Below, piece after piece: positions 7,290 to 16,349 of a stretch of DNA of 64,000 nt. Source of the stretch: Christensenella timonensis. Lineage in GTDB: Bacteria > Bacillota > Clostridia > Christensenellales > Christensenellaceae. The DNA is taken from NCBI RefSeq assembly GCF_900087015.1, contig NZ_FLKP01000002.1, positions 1,364,001 through 1,428,000 on the forward strand, written 5' to 3'. Below the pieces are notes generated by a model that was not told where the DNA came from, ran no database searches, and saw only the letters and a list, made by a program, of their open reading frames with translations. Position 1 is the stretch's first letter. The number at the start of each line of letters is the position of its first letter. Both the position numbers and the translations under genes were made by a program.

Positions 7290-8285
7290 ATGAACGCGAT
7301 ACCGCAAAAGGCGCATAATTACGAAAGAATACAGATACCGCGCAACAATACGGCAAATATAAACGCACAGCAGCGCATGGGCAGGATCACTGACATGCAG
7401 GCTTATAATATGCGCAAAATCGCTATGCAGCGCAAAAAAGCATATGAAGAACGCATGGAATATGAACGTGCACGGCAACAGGAACAGCGCGCAAAAGCGG
7501 CACGCAGCGCACAGCAAAGGCGCGAGGTTTACGAAACGCGGGAAACGATCCGCCAGACGGGGGTCAAGAATGTCGTAGGCGGCAGGAAGCTGACGCCGGC
7601 ATACGAAGTAAGCGCACCCGCGGGAAACTATGGCTATAACGCACCCGTACGTGAACGCAGTATGCGCCAGCAGCCGAGAAACTCTTATGCGCAGCAAAGA
7701 GCGGCATATGCTCCGGCGTATGAAAGGTCGTATGAACGGCCCGTATCCCGCCCAATGCAGAGAAGGAAACCGATCCATGGCTTTGACATGGTGGAAGCAA
7801 CGGATGCGACCGCGTATAATGGAGTAAAGCCAATCGCAGTGGAATATGAAGCGCCCAAGAAAAAAGGAGTCGTTTCCACGATCATCCTGATCGCTGTGGT
7901 TTTTGCGGTTTTGGCAGGAATCCTGATCCGCTATTCGCAGATCAGTAATCTGAATTACCAGAACGCACAGCTGGAATCCCGCATTGAATCGCTTTCACAG
8001 GATCTAGACAAGGCAAAGATGGAAGTTTCGTTAAAGGAAGACCTGAGCAGTATCCGGCAGCAGGCGGCGGCGATGGGGATGTCTGAACCCAAAGACAACC
8101 AGATCGTATTCGTAGAACCGGAAGCACAGGCTGCCGCAGCCGATACGGCGGATACGCAGGATACGGTAACAGCGGAGGGAAGCACGGATCTGTCCCAGCC
8201 GGCAGGCGGCAATGATGCTGCAAGTGGATTTTCCGGCTTCATCAATACAATTTTGGATACGATCAAAGGATGGTTCCAGAATTAA
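7290..8285 (+). CDS. ftsL: FtsL-like divisome protein with a long cytoplasmic N-terminus
   Basis: The position between rsmH and the PBP gene is that of ftsL, and the membrane-proximal part fits. There is one transmembrane helix (about 194-213), a predicted coiled coil (about 216-260) and a following segment like the end of FtsL/DivIC (LSSIRQQAAAMGM). FtsL normally has about 100-130 residues; this protein has 331. The extra parts are a low-complexity Arg/Gln/Tyr/Met-rich N-terminus of about 190 residues, predicted cytoplasmic, and an acidic Ala/Thr/Asp tail ending in an amphipathic helix (FSGFINTILDTIKGWF). The ribosome site GGAGAGG precedes ATG 7290. FtsL links the FtsQ/DivIB-DivIC complex to FtsW and its PBP. 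Assignment to FtsL rather than another septum-initiator protein rests on context plus topology. Confidence 0.75.
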   Translation: MNAIPQKAHNYERIQIPRNNTANINAQQRMGRITDMQAYNMRKIAMQRKKAYEERMEYERARQQEQRAKAARSAQQRREVYETRETIRQTGVKNVVGGRKLTPAYEVSAPAGNYGYNAPVRERSMRQQPRNSYAQQRAAYAPAYERSYERPVSRPMQRRKPIHGFDMVEATDATAYNGVKPIAVEYEAPKKKGVVSTIILIAVVFAVLAGILIRYSQISNLNYQNAQLESRIESLSQDLDKAKMEVSLKEDLSSIRQQAAAMGMSEPKDNQIVFVEPEAQAAAADTADTQDTVTAEGSTDLSQPAGGNDAASGFSGFINTILDTIKGWFQN

Positions 8286-8298
8286 ACAGGAGTAAACA

Positions 8299-10407
8299 TT
8301 GTCGACTTCACGGGTTTTAGTAACCAGGAAAAGGTTGCTGGTCATACTGATCATATTGTCTGTACTCATTATCCTGCTCATGTCACGAGTGGGATATTGG
8401 TCTTTATTTAAGGGAGAATGGCTACAGGAAAAAGCGCAGAAACAATGGACGCGCGATGTGGCGGTGGACGCAAAACGAGGATCTATTTTCGACCGCAATA
8501 TGTATGTGCTTGCACAAAGCGCCGCGGCGGATACAGTCGCGCTGCAGCCGGAGACGATCGACAAAGCCGGCAATGCAGACCAGGTGGCGGACGAGCTTTC
8601 CCGTATTTTGGAGATGCCGAGGGAAGACGTGTATGCAAAAGCGACCAATACTGAGAAAAAGGAAATCTGGCTCAAACGGCAAATCACAACGGAGCAATCC
8701 GAGGAAATCGCCAACTTGAAATTAAAGGGCGTCAGCCTGATTGGCGATGTGAAGAGGTTTTACCTGAATAAGGATTTTGCATCGCAGGTCATTGGATATA
8801 CGACGCAGGACGGCGTTGGGCAGACGGGTATCGAGAAGCGTTATAACAGCACGCTGGAAGGCCGCCAGGGCAGGCAGGTCACAGAGACGGCAAAGGACGG
8901 AAGCGGCGTGCCCAATGGGCAGGAAATGGTGATCGAGCCGCAGGATGGGCAAAGCGTTGTCCTGACGATCGACGAAATGGCGCAGAGCATTTTGGAGGAC
9001 GCGTGCAACTCACTGTATGCAGACCATTCGCCGGACAGCGTACAGGGGCTGGTATTGGACGTTACCACAGGTGAAGTGCTGGCGATGGCGAACATTCCGC
9101 AATTTGACCTGAATAATCCGCCGCGCGAGGATGCGACGGCACTCGCGTCAATGTCCGTCAATACCATCACTGCGACGCCGTACGAACCCGGAAGCATTTT
9201 TGGGGTCTTTACATTGGCGGCCGCAATGAACGAGAATATGGCGGGCGAATACAGTTGCAGCGGTTCCGTAGTCGTGGACGGCGAAAAGATTTCGTGTAGG
9301 GCGGTGCATGGGACGCAGAATATGATGCAGGCAGTGGAGGATCACTGCAGCATCGCGGCAGCGCTCCAATCGGATGCACTGGGCAAGGATACGTTATACC
9401 AATACCTGAAAGCGTTTGGTTTTGGTGAAAAGACGGGGATCGATTTTTCGACCGATACGCAGGGCGACGTGATGGAGAAAAAATATGCGCGGCAAGCGGA
9501 CGTTGCGCTGATGGGCGCGGGCGAAAACATGAAGGTCTCGCAGATACAGATGGCGAACGCGCTGGCGTCGATCCTGAACGGGGGGACGCTGTATACGCCG
9601 CGGCTGGTATTGGGCCTTGCGGACAGCAATGGAAATATCGTTGAAAAATATGAAGCGGAAGTAAAAGGGCAGACGGTTTCTTCCGAGGTGGCGTCGCAAA
9701 TCAAGGAGATGATGCTCGACTACATCCAAAGCGGCGATGGCACACAGGCGCAGATCGCAGGATACTCCGTAGGAGGCTTAAGCGGGTCATCGGCATTTTA
9801 TGATGGCGATACGCCTATGCAGGGGAAGATGGTATCGTCCTTCTTTGCCTTCGCGCCGTCTGAAACTCCCAGGTATCTTGTGATGGTCACTGCAAACGGA
9901 ATCGCATCAGGGGAAAGCAATGACACGGTTTGCGCGCCGTATGCAAAGAAGGTGCTGGAGGATATCCTGAAAAACAACAATATTGCACCTGACGACGAGG
10001 CGGCGCGTAGTGCACAAAAAACCGTTGTGCCAAATGTGGTAGGGATGGAGATGCAGACGGCAAAGGATACGCTTGAAAATGCGGGGCTCACAGTTAAGCT
10101 GGACGGAAGCGGTAATGTGCTGAGCCAGATACCTGCGGCGGAAGAGGAAGTCTATGCCGGTTCTACGGTAACGCTCAATATGGAAACAAAATCGGAATCG
10201 GCGCCGGTGGCAGAAATGACTACGGTTCCTGATTTTGCGGGCATGAGCATAGCGGATGCACGCGATGCGGCGGTTGCCGCAGGATTAAAATTTGTGGCGC
10301 TCGGCGACGGTGTGGCGCAAGGCCAGAAGCCGGCGGCAAACCTGCAAGTGGAAAAAGGTACGACGGTGACAGTACAGTTCAATCTACAAATAGACACGGC
10401 ACAGTAG
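8299..10407 (+). CDS. Class B PBP-like protein with PASTA domains; transpeptidase motifs degenerate
   Basis: Located where FtsI/PBP2B or SpoVD is normally encoded. It has 702 aa: N-terminal membrane anchor (about 13-30), PBP dimerisation domain opening with KRGSIFDRN (59-67), a transpeptidase-fold domain (about 235-570) and two PASTA domains (about 576-632 and 642-700). The fold is clear (GLVLDVTTGEVLAMA, YLKAFGFGEKTGID, TYTPRLVLGL-like stretches), but the active site is not. The SxxK tetrad reads S299-I-F-G302, the SxN motif aligns to H349-C-S351, and KTG reads L494-S-G496. The nucleophile Ser is left but the essential Lys is gone, so transpeptidation and beta-lactam acylation are not expected. 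The role is probably structural: FtsW partner or PASTA-mediated sensing. TTG 8299 has an AGGAG site 6-7 nt upstream. No frameshift or stop is seen. Confidence 0.9.
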   Translation: MSTSRVLVTRKRLLVILIILSVLIILLMSRVGYWSLFKGEWLQEKAQKQWTRDVAVDAKRGSIFDRNMYVLAQSAAADTVALQPETIDKAGNADQVADELSRILEMPREDVYAKATNTEKKEIWLKRQITTEQSEEIANLKLKGVSLIGDVKRFYLNKDFASQVIGYTTQDGVGQTGIEKRYNSTLEGRQGRQVTETAKDGSGVPNGQEMVIEPQDGQSVVLTIDEMAQSILEDACNSLYADHSPDSVQGLVLDVTTGEVLAMANIPQFDLNNPPREDATALASMSVNTITATPYEPGSIFGVFTLAAAMNENMAGEYSCSGSVVVDGEKISCRAVHGTQNMMQAVEDHCSIAAALQSDALGKDTLYQYLKAFGFGEKTGIDFSTDTQGDVMEKKYARQADVALMGAGENMKVSQIQMANALASILNGGTLYTPRLVLGLADSNGNIVEKYEAEVKGQTVSSEVASQIKEMMLDYIQSGDGTQAQIAGYSVGGLSGSSAFYDGDTPMQGKMVSSFFAFAPSETPRYLVMVTANGIASGESNDTVCAPYAKKVLEDILKNNNIAPDDEAARSAQKTVVPNVVGMEMQTAKDTLENAGLTVKLDGSGNVLSQIPAAEEEVYAGSTVTLNMETKSESAPVAEMTTVPDFAGMSIADARDAAVAAGLKFVALGDGVAQGQKPAANLQVEKGTTVTVQFNLQIDTAQ

Positions 10408-14326: not shown

Positions 14327-15478
14327 ATGCGGAAAACGAACCTGCTGCAAAAGGGATCGATAGACTATTCGTTGCTGATCGTGACGCTGATACTGATCGC
14401 ATATGGTTTGCTGATGGTATTCAGCGCCAGTTATTATATGGCGCAGTCCTCAAAGCTCTACAATTATGATGGCCTGGCACTGTTCAAAAAGCAACTGGTG
14501 GGTGCGGCCATCGGCCTTGTGTTCATGGTTTTCTTTATATTTTTTGACTATAAGAAACTGATCAAGCTGAAATATGTGCTGCTGGTTTTGGCGGGACTAT
14601 GCCTGGTCGCTGTTTTCATCCCGGGGATCGGCGTGAATGTCAACGGCTCATCGCGCTGGATCCAGTTGGGGCCGCTGCCGCAGTTGCAGCCGGCAGAGAT
14701 CGCTAAGGTAGCCATCATCGTTTTTATCGCTTCGGTGATTTATGTGAACCGCAACCGGATGAACACTTTCCGTTACGGCGTGATACCATCGCTTGTGGCG
14801 CTGATACCAATTTGTATCCTGTTGTATTTCCAACCGAATTTTTCGGCGATTATCGTCCTGTGCGCGCTCACTTTTATCATGATCTTTGTGGGAGGCGCAA
14901 AGGCATGGCACCTTTTGGCGCTCGGCGGCGTGGGTGTCGTGGGCGGTTTTGCGCTGATGATGATGAAGGATTACCGCGTGGATCGTATCACCACCTTTTT
15001 GGATCCGTGGCAGAATGCCACAGAAGGCGGCTATCAGGTCGTGCAGTCGCTTTATGGTATTGGTTCTGGCGGACTGTTTGGGCAGGGGATCGGAAACGGG
15101 ACGCAAAAGCTCTCGTGGCTTCCATACGGGGAATCGGATTTTATTTTTTCGATCATCGCGGAGGAACTGGGCCTGATCGGCGTGATCGTCCTGCTGGCCC
15201 TGTTTATTTTCCTGATTTACCGCGGGATCAAAACGGCGGCGCAGGCGCCGGATCTTTTTGGGACGATGCTTGCCACCGGCGTTACCACGGTGATTGCCTT
15301 GCAGGTTATCATCAATGTAGGCGTTGTAACGGCATCGCTTCCGCCTACAGGCGTATCGCTGCCGTTCATCAGTTATGGAAGTTCATCACTCGTTATCTTT
15401 ATGAGTATGATAGGGATCATGCTCAATGTTTCAAAACAATCGCGACGAATTATGATGGCGAAGAGAACGAAGGAATAG
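14327..15478 (+). CDS. ftsW: SEDS-family peptidoglycan glycosyltransferase FtsW/SpoVE
   Basis: Polymerises lipid II at the septum; SEDS proteins work with a cognate class B PBP. The 383-aa product has about ten transmembrane helices and SEDS signatures: NGSSRWIQLGPLPQLQPAEIAK, FSAIIVLCALTFIMIFVGGA, the periplasmic loop WQNATEGGYQVVQSLYGIGSGG, and the terminal PPTGVSLPFISYGSSSL. Context (between murD and divIB) favours FtsW or SpoVE over RodA. The PBP encoded in the same cluster lacks catalytic residues, so its working transpeptidase partner may be encoded elsewhere. murG and murC, common downstream neighbours, are absent. Confidence 0.94.
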   Translation: MRKTNLLQKGSIDYSLLIVTLILIAYGLLMVFSASYYMAQSSKLYNYDGLALFKKQLVGAAIGLVFMVFFIFFDYKKLIKLKYVLLVLAGLCLVAVFIPGIGVNVNGSSRWIQLGPLPQLQPAEIAKVAIIVFIASVIYVNRNRMNTFRYGVIPSLVALIPICILLYFQPNFSAIIVLCALTFIMIFVGGAKAWHLLALGGVGVVGGFALMMMKDYRVDRITTFLDPWQNATEGGYQVVQSLYGIGSGGLFGQGIGNGTQKLSWLPYGESDFIFSIIAEELGLIGVIVLLALFIFLIYRGIKTAAQAPDLFGTMLATGVTTVIALQVIINVGVVTASLPPTGVSLPFISYGSSSLVIFMSMIGIMLNVSKQSRRIMMAKRTKE

Positions 15479-15491
15479 GCAAGGGGGAACA

Positions 15492-16349
15492 ATGAAAAAG
15501 CAACACAAACGCAGCGTTGGAAAAACAATTTTAGCGGTTGTTTTAATTATATTACTGCTCGCGGGAGCGGGATATTTTGTTTATGTTTATTTTCAGGTGG
15601 AAAATGTTGATGTCAAGGGAAATGCCAGCTATGACGCGAGCTATATCGTGAAGCTGGCCGATGTCCCGCCAAAGACACATATGTTTATGGCCGATACGGA
15701 AAAGATCAAGGAAAATATCGAAACGGAACCATATTTGCAGGTGGACGGGATCGCAAAAAGCTATCCCAAAACTTTGGTGATCACTGTGACGGAGCGGGTG
15801 CCCAAAGCGCTTATCCTGTATGCGGACAAATACCTGCTCGTGGATGGCTCGGCCAACGTGCTGGAGATATTAGACGCGCCGCCCGAGCAGCAGCAGTATC
15901 CTGTCGTAAGCGGGATCACGATCAATTCGGTAAACCTGGGGAAAGCCATCGATACGGAAGATACGTTCAAGATTTCGGTGCTGGCGGATATCCTGGCGGA
16001 AATGGAAACCAAAGACCTATATGCGACGATCTCGACCATCGACCTTTCGGATGTTAACAATATCCGCATGCAGTCTTATGATGGGATGATGATTAAATTT
16101 GGGCAATCGGACAAGATAGCCGATAAAATGAAATGGATCAAGAAGATGTTGCCCAAGCTGGCGGCAGACGGGAATACGAGCGGCGTTTATGACGTAACGA
16201 GCGGGACGAGCGGCACATACCGGATGACGGATGACGCGGCCGCCCAGCAGGCGCCGACCGAGCCGGGGCAGCAAGATGACCCGGGCACGGCAGAGCCGGG
16301 AGAAGGCGGGGAGCCGGCCGAACCGGATGAACCTCTGGCGCAGGAATAA
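15492..16349 (+). CDS. divIB: Cell division protein DivIB/FtsQ
   Basis: Bitopic division protein that bridges FtsL/DivIC. The 285 aa have a short basic cytoplasmic N-terminus, one transmembrane helix (about 13-34), a POTRA domain starting VENVDVKGNASYDASYIVKLA, then the FtsQ beta domain with AKSYPKTLVITVTERVPKALI. The last about 45 residues are a Pro/Glu/Gly/Ala-rich acidic tail, predicted disordered and outside the membrane. AAGGGGG precedes ATG 15492. It is the last gene of the MraZ-headed transcript before a non-coding stretch. Confidence 0.92.
   Translation: MKKQHKRSVGKTILAVVLIILLLAGAGYFVYVYFQVENVDVKGNASYDASYIVKLADVPPKTHMFMADTEKIKENIETEPYLQVDGIAKSYPKTLVITVTERVPKALILYADKYLLVDGSANVLEILDAPPEQQQYPVVSGITINSVNLGKAIDTEDTFKISVLADILAEMETKDLYATISTIDLSDVNNIRMQSYDGMMIKFGQSDKIADKMKWIKKMLPKLAADGNTSGVYDVTSGTSGTYRMTDDAAAQQAPTEPGQQDDPGTAEPGEGGEPAEPDEPLAQE

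Follow-up and report, generated by a model that had tools for sequence, protein, structure and literature searches.

The class B PBP encoded in the dcw cluster of Christensenella timonensis is a pseudo-transpeptidase, and across the Christensenellales the catalytic death of this protein tracks the absence of spore genes, as fits SpoVD, the side of the class B PBPs on which its sequence places it. The dead protein is under purifying selection, which is strongest in its N-terminal part, and its transpeptidase domain is relaxed relative to that of intact relatives.

Results

The dcw class B PBP of C. timonensis lacks the catalytic motifs

We analysed a window of 64,000 nucleotides of the C. timonensis genome (2.65 Mb, two contigs), in which the dcw genes follow one another in the order rsmH, FtsL-like gene, PBP, murE, mraY, murD, ftsW, ftsQ, ftsA, ftsZ (Table 1). 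A first-pass annotation of this DNA had described the PBP as keeping its membrane anchor, dimerisation domain, transpeptidase fold and two PASTA domains and as having lost all three catalytic motifs. This description proved accurate. Pfam assigns PBP_dimer to residues 57–202 and Transpeptidase to residues 251–553 and recognises two PASTA stretches; with the N-terminal anchor, read from the sequence, and no GT51 match, these domains identify a class B PBP. The motif geometry was read by alignment to the sequences of solved structures, SpoVD included, and places S299-I-F-G302, H349-C350-S351 and L494-S495-G496 exactly as annotated: SIFG, HCS and LSG stand where an active serine transpeptidase has SxxK, SxN and KTG. 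The FtsL-like protein encoded at 7290–8285 carries about 200 residues ahead of its membrane segment and is matched by FtsL models only under their cut-off; a usual FtsL is far shorter than these 331 aa.

Table 1. Features of the PBP gene and of its dcw neighbours in the window
Feature	Position	Strand	Basis
SpoVD-type class B PBP, active site lost (pseudo-transpeptidase), 702 aa, TTG start	8299..10407	+	ORF, Pfam, NCBIfam, alignment
Membrane anchor, N-terminal (approximate)	8332..8397	+	Hydrophobic stretch in translation
PBP_dimer/pedestal, residues 57-202, inside most constrained part	8467..8904	+	Pfam, divergence analysis
Transpeptidase domain, residues 251-553, E 3.9e-47	9049..9957	+	Pfam
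PASTA, residues 576-628, best of two PASTA stretches	10024..10182	+	Pfam
SxxK position, S299-I-F-G302, Lys lost	9193..9204	+	Alignment
SxN position, H349-C350-S351, Ser and Asn lost, Cys kept	9343..9351	+	Alignment
KTG position, L494-S495-G496, Lys lost	9778..9786	+	Alignment
C320, putative Zn2+ tetrad residue 1	9256..9258	+	Alignment
C333, putative Zn2+ tetrad residue 2	9295..9297	+	Alignment
H337, putative Zn2+ tetrad residue 3	9307..9309	+	Alignment
C350 (x of SxN), putative Zn2+ tetrad residue 4	9346..9348	+	Alignment
FtsL-like gene, 331 aa, directly upstream of PBP	7290..8285	+	DivIC/FtsL models below cut-off
FtsW/SpoVE-type SEDS glycosyltransferase, proposed PBP partner	14327..15478	+	Profile matches
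D271 of SEDS protein, aligned with P. aeruginosa FtsW D275	15137..15139	+	Alignment
FtsQ/DivIB	15492..16349	+	Pfam

The nearest solved relative of the protein is C. difficile SpoVD (7RCZ, E 1.9e-82) and the closest named record comes from Christensenella intestinihominis (61% identical). The spoVD model TIGR02214 gives it its top NCBIfam score, 495.8 bits, yet does not reach its curated cut-off of 688. The gene occupies the position of spoVD: murE comes next, and a SpoVE/FtsW gene follows further downstream. SpoVD-type PBPs are described as carrying a Zn2+ tetrad made of an invariant His, the Cys within SxN and two further Cys or Asp (PMC9334274), and at the residue level this tetrad is present as C320, C333, H337 and C350. 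The protein accordingly shares with SpoVD of C. difficile and B. subtilis (TIGR02214; 7RCZ) its dcw position, its anchor–pedestal–transpeptidase layout and the tetrad residues, but differs in its lost catalytic residues, its score below the cut-off and a genome with no SpoIVA and only a weak SpoIIE match.

Loss of the motifs is fixed in Christensenella and recurs in the order

All six Christensenella genomes, three of them single-contig, lack working versions of the three motifs and carry the gene as a stop-free frame, in agreement with the earlier view that the frame is intact and the loss fixed. The SxxK letters vary among the species (SIFG, NIFS, NIFG, DIFG), and since motif letters differ between relatives they point to decay, not to a new fixed motif. 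A Cys-His pair formed by H349 and C350 was considered as a replacement for the serine and rejected: intact enzymes retain C350 just as well, and in the rows read H349 was seen only in the genus.

We searched 396 Christensenellales genomes, of which 356 match the dcw PBP at 1e-60, and read the motifs in 139 of these, a non-random sample drawn for the most part from the best-ranked matches. The first reading comprised 107 loci (100 genomes, six named loci, of which L037 is a second record like G004, and a second piece of G009); the 39 further genomes read afterwards were all intact. In total, 17 genomes have lost the motifs, one (G038) has lost a lysine only and 121 are intact, so that the same loss does occur in related genomes, where the first-pass annotation had proposed to look for it. 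Twelve of the motif-lost genomes (G000–G007, G009, G011, G012, G014) belong to the family of Christensenella, in which the other 6 of 18 genomes are intact; G027, G374, G061, G157 and G117 complete the set. Intact close relatives, which the annotation had named as a potential refutation, therefore exist, but they do not refute the loss, because all six Christensenella genomes read lack the motifs. At least two motifs are gone in each of the 17 genomes where all are readable: G027 keeps SxxK and has NCD and LSG at the other two positions, and G007, G117 and G157 keep SCN. In G038 (L020) the SxxK lysine alone is lost (STLE), SCN and KTG are intact and spore markers are absent; this genome perhaps represents an early stage of decay.

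A tree of 99 rows was built with 19 active-site columns removed; it is a quick tree with SH-aLRT support only, which is less to be trusted where rows are long. Motif state changes seven times on it and the well-supported (starred) branches force seven changes, compared with a mean of 16.7 in 500 label shuffles. The seven events fall in the Christensenella group (9 rows), G007+G014, G011, G061+G157, G117, G027+G374 and G038. The gene tree separates the Christensenella group from the rest of its family, perhaps through a long-branch effect. The order mraZ-rsmH-(ftsL where found)-PBP-murE-mraY-murD-ftsW is found in G006, G007, G009, G012, G014, G027, G061, G117 and G038, and spread over two contigs in G157; in the five other Christensenella genomes the distance between PBP and FtsW is about 4 kb, matching that in the window. 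The dcw genes of G374 are split between the contigs C14 and C4 (L230, L231), with mraZ to murD and the PBP on one of them and ftsW-ftsQ on the other.

No dcw PBP match was obtained in 40 of the 396 genomes, and we looked at 11 of these, among 20 listed. At least eight genomes of one other family (G020, G073, G093, G110, G126, G140, G186, G196) have no match at 1e-60; they are 96–99% complete and without SpoIVA, which indicates that the dcw PBP can be given up. Both SEDS matches of G020, G073, G126, G140 and G196 share a contig with a PBP that is either MrdA-sized or short. G093, G110 and G186 have a weaker or partial second SEDS match, which may represent a divergent FtsW. This family perhaps illustrates a further step, the loss of the dcw PBP itself. 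G059 has SpoIVA and a strong FtsW-type SEDS match, yet no dcw PBP match at 1e-60, and the no-match genomes G023 and G067 are incomplete.

The pedestal is constrained and the transpeptidase domain relaxed

Pairwise omega of the dcw PBP is 0.050–0.058 in four Christensenella pairs, with synonymous sites near saturation, and 0.13 for L013–L029; six of nine intact pairs give 0.071–0.245, the other three being saturated. Values of about 0.05 bear out the earlier suggestion that selection retains the protein. The ratio of dN in the transpeptidase domain to dN in residues 1–215 is 2.2–3.4 in the four Christensenella pairs (three share a species) and 1.8 for L013–L029, as against 0.4–1.3 in the nine intact pairs.

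Divergence was measured as the mean to intact sequences from other families. For residues 40–215 the 17 dead rows lie at 1.17–1.42 and the intact rows at a mean of 1.16 (0.98–1.38); for the transpeptidase domain without its catalytic columns the dead rows lie at 0.98–1.44 and the intact rows at a mean of 0.87 (0.74–1.09). The K-only row falls inside the intact range. In every one of the 17 fully dead rows the transpeptidase/pedestal divergence ratio is higher than in 75 to 81 of the 81 intact rows. At columns 95% conserved in 86 intact rows, scored in 16 dead rows with L029 omitted, the dead rows keep 270/272 cells of the pedestal, 33/112 of the seven catalytic columns and 497/672 of the other transpeptidase positions. 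The statement of the first-pass annotation that the fold is well conserved thus applies best to the pedestal and less to the transpeptidase domain, which is relaxed when compared with intact relatives.

The putative Zn2+ site behaves otherwise. CCHC is kept in all 17 fully dead rows and in the K-only row (18/18), as in 79 of 86 intact rows, the remaining seven differing at one position; S349 and N351, which flank C350, are each kept in 5 of 16 dead rows. The tetrad, with Cys as the x of SxN and the invariant His, is that of the Zn2+-binding PBPs described in PMC9334274, but there it is an adjunct of an active enzyme and here its residues outlast the active site.

Catalytic death and the missing spore genes

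SpoIVA (PF09547) was sought in 80 + 50 genomes and SpoIIE (TIGR02865) in the first 80 alone. SpoIVA was found in none of the 18 motif-lost genomes (17 and the K-only G038) and in 91 of the 101 intact genomes in which it was sought, namely 71 of the 81 on the tree, G181 and all 19 covered among the 39 later-read genomes. SpoIIE in the 18 is either not found or reduced to a match of E 1.1e-12 or weaker across the phosphatase end. Among the ten intact genomes without SpoIVA, six have a strong SpoIIE, G021 and G071 have none or a weak one, and G285 and G258 lie outside the SpoIIE search; these last four, intact with one or both markers missing, indicate that decay need not follow when spore genes are absent. 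The markers disagree in the intact G055, G275, G390 and G321, where SpoIVA is present and SpoIIE weak, partial or absent.

We compared seven independent pairs on the tree by a sign test. With SpoIVA alone, a mean of 6.1 of 7 pairs go in the same direction and none in the opposite one (median p 0.031, range 0.016–0.25); with SpoIVA or a strong SpoIIE, the mean is 6.9 of 7, again with none opposite (median p 0.016). Draft gaps can mimic absence in such counts; 14 of the 18 motif-lost genomes are 88–100% complete, and G011, G012, G014 and G157 are 68–85% complete.

SEDS partner and other transpeptidases

Gene inventories were built from family searches and selected stretches of the genomes. D275 of P. 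aeruginosa FtsW is reported as a putative active-site residue (PMC7614612), and it aligns with D271 of our FtsW. G038 and 16 of the 17 dead genomes carry this Asp in their dcw-type FtsW. In the remaining genome, G011 (69% complete), the remainder of the dcw contig yielded no mraY, murD or ftsW, and the sole SEDS match adjoins an MrdA-sized PBP, which leaves the dead PBP there without an FtsW partner in the available sequence. On C2 of G011 (L238, L270), mraZ-rsmH-ftsL-PBP-murE is followed by opposite-strand genes.

The first-pass annotation had reasoned that the SEDS enzyme would need another transpeptidase, and intact alternatives are indeed present. A PBP3-type class B PBP with intact S..K, SDN and KTG occurs in 16 of the 17 fully dead genomes and in G038; none was found in G012 (72% complete). 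Of these 17 proteins, 15 match MecA_N (E 1e-3) and all match PBP_dimer and Transpeptidase, the G157 protein being cut at its N-terminus. PBP3-type proteins also occur, with motifs intact in 12 of 12, in intact genomes that were chosen for having a candidate, so that this enzyme looks like an older backup and not a new gain.

The annotation had called for a list of the other class B PBPs. Four further PF00905 proteins were found in the source genome (G000), all keeping S..K, SxN and KTG: a MecA_N-type protein of 728 aa; an MrdA-like PBP_dimer protein of 851 aa, encoded close to mreC and a SEDS gene; a 1047-aa protein taken for a candidate class A PBP; and a 463-aa transpeptidase-only PBP. The last directly adjoins its own SEDS gene at C1:306233-308637 (L240), next to uvrC, and PBPs of that size with a SEDS match nearby are seen in many genomes of Christensenella's family. 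The dcw FtsW is the single SEDS match in G027, where PF00905 matches the dead PBP, a MecA_N protein and a 925-aa protein that is probably a class A PBP; MrdA was rejected as the replacement there, the other class B PBP being of MecA_N type. L,D-transpeptidases were likewise rejected as a universal replacement: YkuD is found in 14 of 17 fully dead genomes (not in G006, G007, G014) and in many intact ones, and is consequently not a clean substitute.

Discussion

We consider it likely that the dcw PBP is a once-active SpoVD-type enzyme whose catalysis decayed after sporulation was lost, its body being kept as an activator or scaffold of FtsW and other enzymes carrying out the cross-linking. The ancestor would have been an active SpoVD-type class B PBP whose transpeptidase activity was needed for spores. 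Loss of sporulation would have ended selection on the active site and let the catalytic residues decay, while the anchor, the pedestal and the folded transpeptidase shell with its Zn2+ site would still hold and activate the dcw-encoded FtsW and link it to FtsL and FtsQ. For these services the dead protein would have been retained. Glycan strands would then be made by FtsW and septal cross-links most likely by the PBP3/MecA_N-type class B PBP, or by a class A PBP. We infer the structural role of the dead PBP from its conservation, and in the same way the activation of FtsW, the work of FtsW in vegetative division and the identity of the cross-linker are deduced.

The loss of catalysis in genomes without spore genes, with the body and the SEDS Asp mostly kept, fits mutants described in C. 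difficile and B. subtilis. With SpoVD(S311A), C. difficile fails to form heat-resistant spores, yet asymmetric division is completed at about 70–80% of wild type and requires SpoVE (PMC12713402), a dead SpoVD thus supporting a division in dependence on its SEDS partner. B. subtilis PBP2B(S309A) is functional when PBP3 is present (PMC5656894): there, too, an inactive class B PBP of division serves a structural purpose, and a PBP3/PBP2A-type enzyme is available. The PBP2B precedent, put forward in the first-pass annotation, still applies, but SpoVD(S311A) is the nearer one, given that our PBP lies on the SpoVD side and that its loss is tied to missing sporulation genes. Both differ from the present case. 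SpoVD(S311A) is an engineered change of a single residue in a spore-former, whereas the present case is natural, involves all motifs and concerns genomes without the spore markers; PBP2B(S309A) is engineered too, and sporulating Bacilli have two class B PBP genes per cluster, FtsI and SpoVD (PMC10693644), where here there is one, dead in nature. No natural dead dcw class B PBP was recognised in the set of open-access papers searched, judged by titles and starts of abstracts, which is not proof of absence; a search for Christensenella with PBP or division gave nothing relevant, and the main text of PMC8340488 and PMC10693644 does not mention the genus. The precedents being engineered mutants, a natural dead dcw class B PBP is what appears new.

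Two reports temper the proposal, and a third speaks on both sides. In C. difficile, SpoVD and SpoVE act in sporulation, polar septum included, and are dispensable for vegetative division, which is driven by a class A PBP (PMC10693644), so that it cannot be taken for granted that vegetative division is what retains the dead PBP. PBP3 catalysis is not needed in that species (PMC12713402), and the cross-linker may therefore be another enzyme. In P. aeruginosa, FtsI touches FtsW through its transmembrane segment and linker and FtsL through its pedestal and transpeptidase domain (PMC7614612), which speaks for a structural role; as a counterpoint, the FtsL contact includes the part that is relaxed in the dead PBPs.

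Other readings of the retained protein fare less well. The best of them, itself improbable, is that the Zn2+/thiol shell and the PASTA domains read redox state or wall fragments and regulate FtsW, selection keeping the sensing over the activation; a redox-sensor role has been put forward for the Zn2+ site of SpoVD-type PBPs (PMC9334274), and CCHC persists in 18 of 18 motif-lost rows with its neighbours S349 and N351 mostly gone, but the site may simply hold the fold. Slightly less credible is service in elongation or shape through a SEDS enzyme outside the septum, and not in division. G027, whose sole SEDS match is the dcw one, speaks for it, and that protein may serve both elongation and division there; the dead PBP is clustered with ftsL-like, ftsW, ftsQ, ftsA and ftsZ, however, and in G000 mreC, an MrdA-like PBP gene and a SEDS gene lie together at another locus. 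We find it harder still to believe in a functionless, slowly decaying remnant of sporulation. Against an open frame in 6/6 Christensenella genomes with omega about 0.05, and against 270/272 pedestal cells and the Zn2+ tetrad kept across species about 40% different in this protein, such a remnant can claim the vanished active site, a transpeptidase domain evolving faster than in intact relatives, the eight genomes of the other family that lack both SpoIVA and a dcw PBP match, and G011, in which the dead gene persists and no FtsW was found. Misalignment, sequencing error or assembly error behind the motif loss is next to impossible: several relatives are fragmentary assemblies and the G009 gene contains a gap, but residues flanking the motifs align well, PBP3-type proteins read intact in 16 of the same 17 genomes, and independent genomes agree, three Christensenella ones being single-contig. 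For the genus an artefact is already refuted, including the sequencing error that the first-pass annotation had listed as a potential refutation.

Taking the dead PBP as a retained partner of FtsW, we lean, by a little, towards a wider reading: a division machine whose class B PBP is an obligate pseudo-transpeptidase may have emerged on at least six occasions, or seven if the K-only case is counted, among Christensenellales without spore genes, with glycan synthesis split from cross-linking and the Zn2+ centre kept independently of catalysis as a structural or redox part. The residues of the putative site suggest that the Zn2+ site of SpoVD-type PBPs serves a purpose apart from catalysis, and the pattern of loss suggests that in Christensenellales spores were the reason for keeping the dcw PBP catalytically active. 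These observations support the view that division synthases in Clostridia are unusual. Judging by its motifs, the dead dcw PBP is also a division protein that beta-lactams should be unable to acylate. Engineered point mutants have been used to ask if the chemistry of a division class B PBP is what the cell requires, or its activation of the SEDS partner; in the Christensenellales evolution has repeated the experiment several times, mostly leaving a dead partner and a SEDS protein with its Asp, which makes the question testable in natural proteins.
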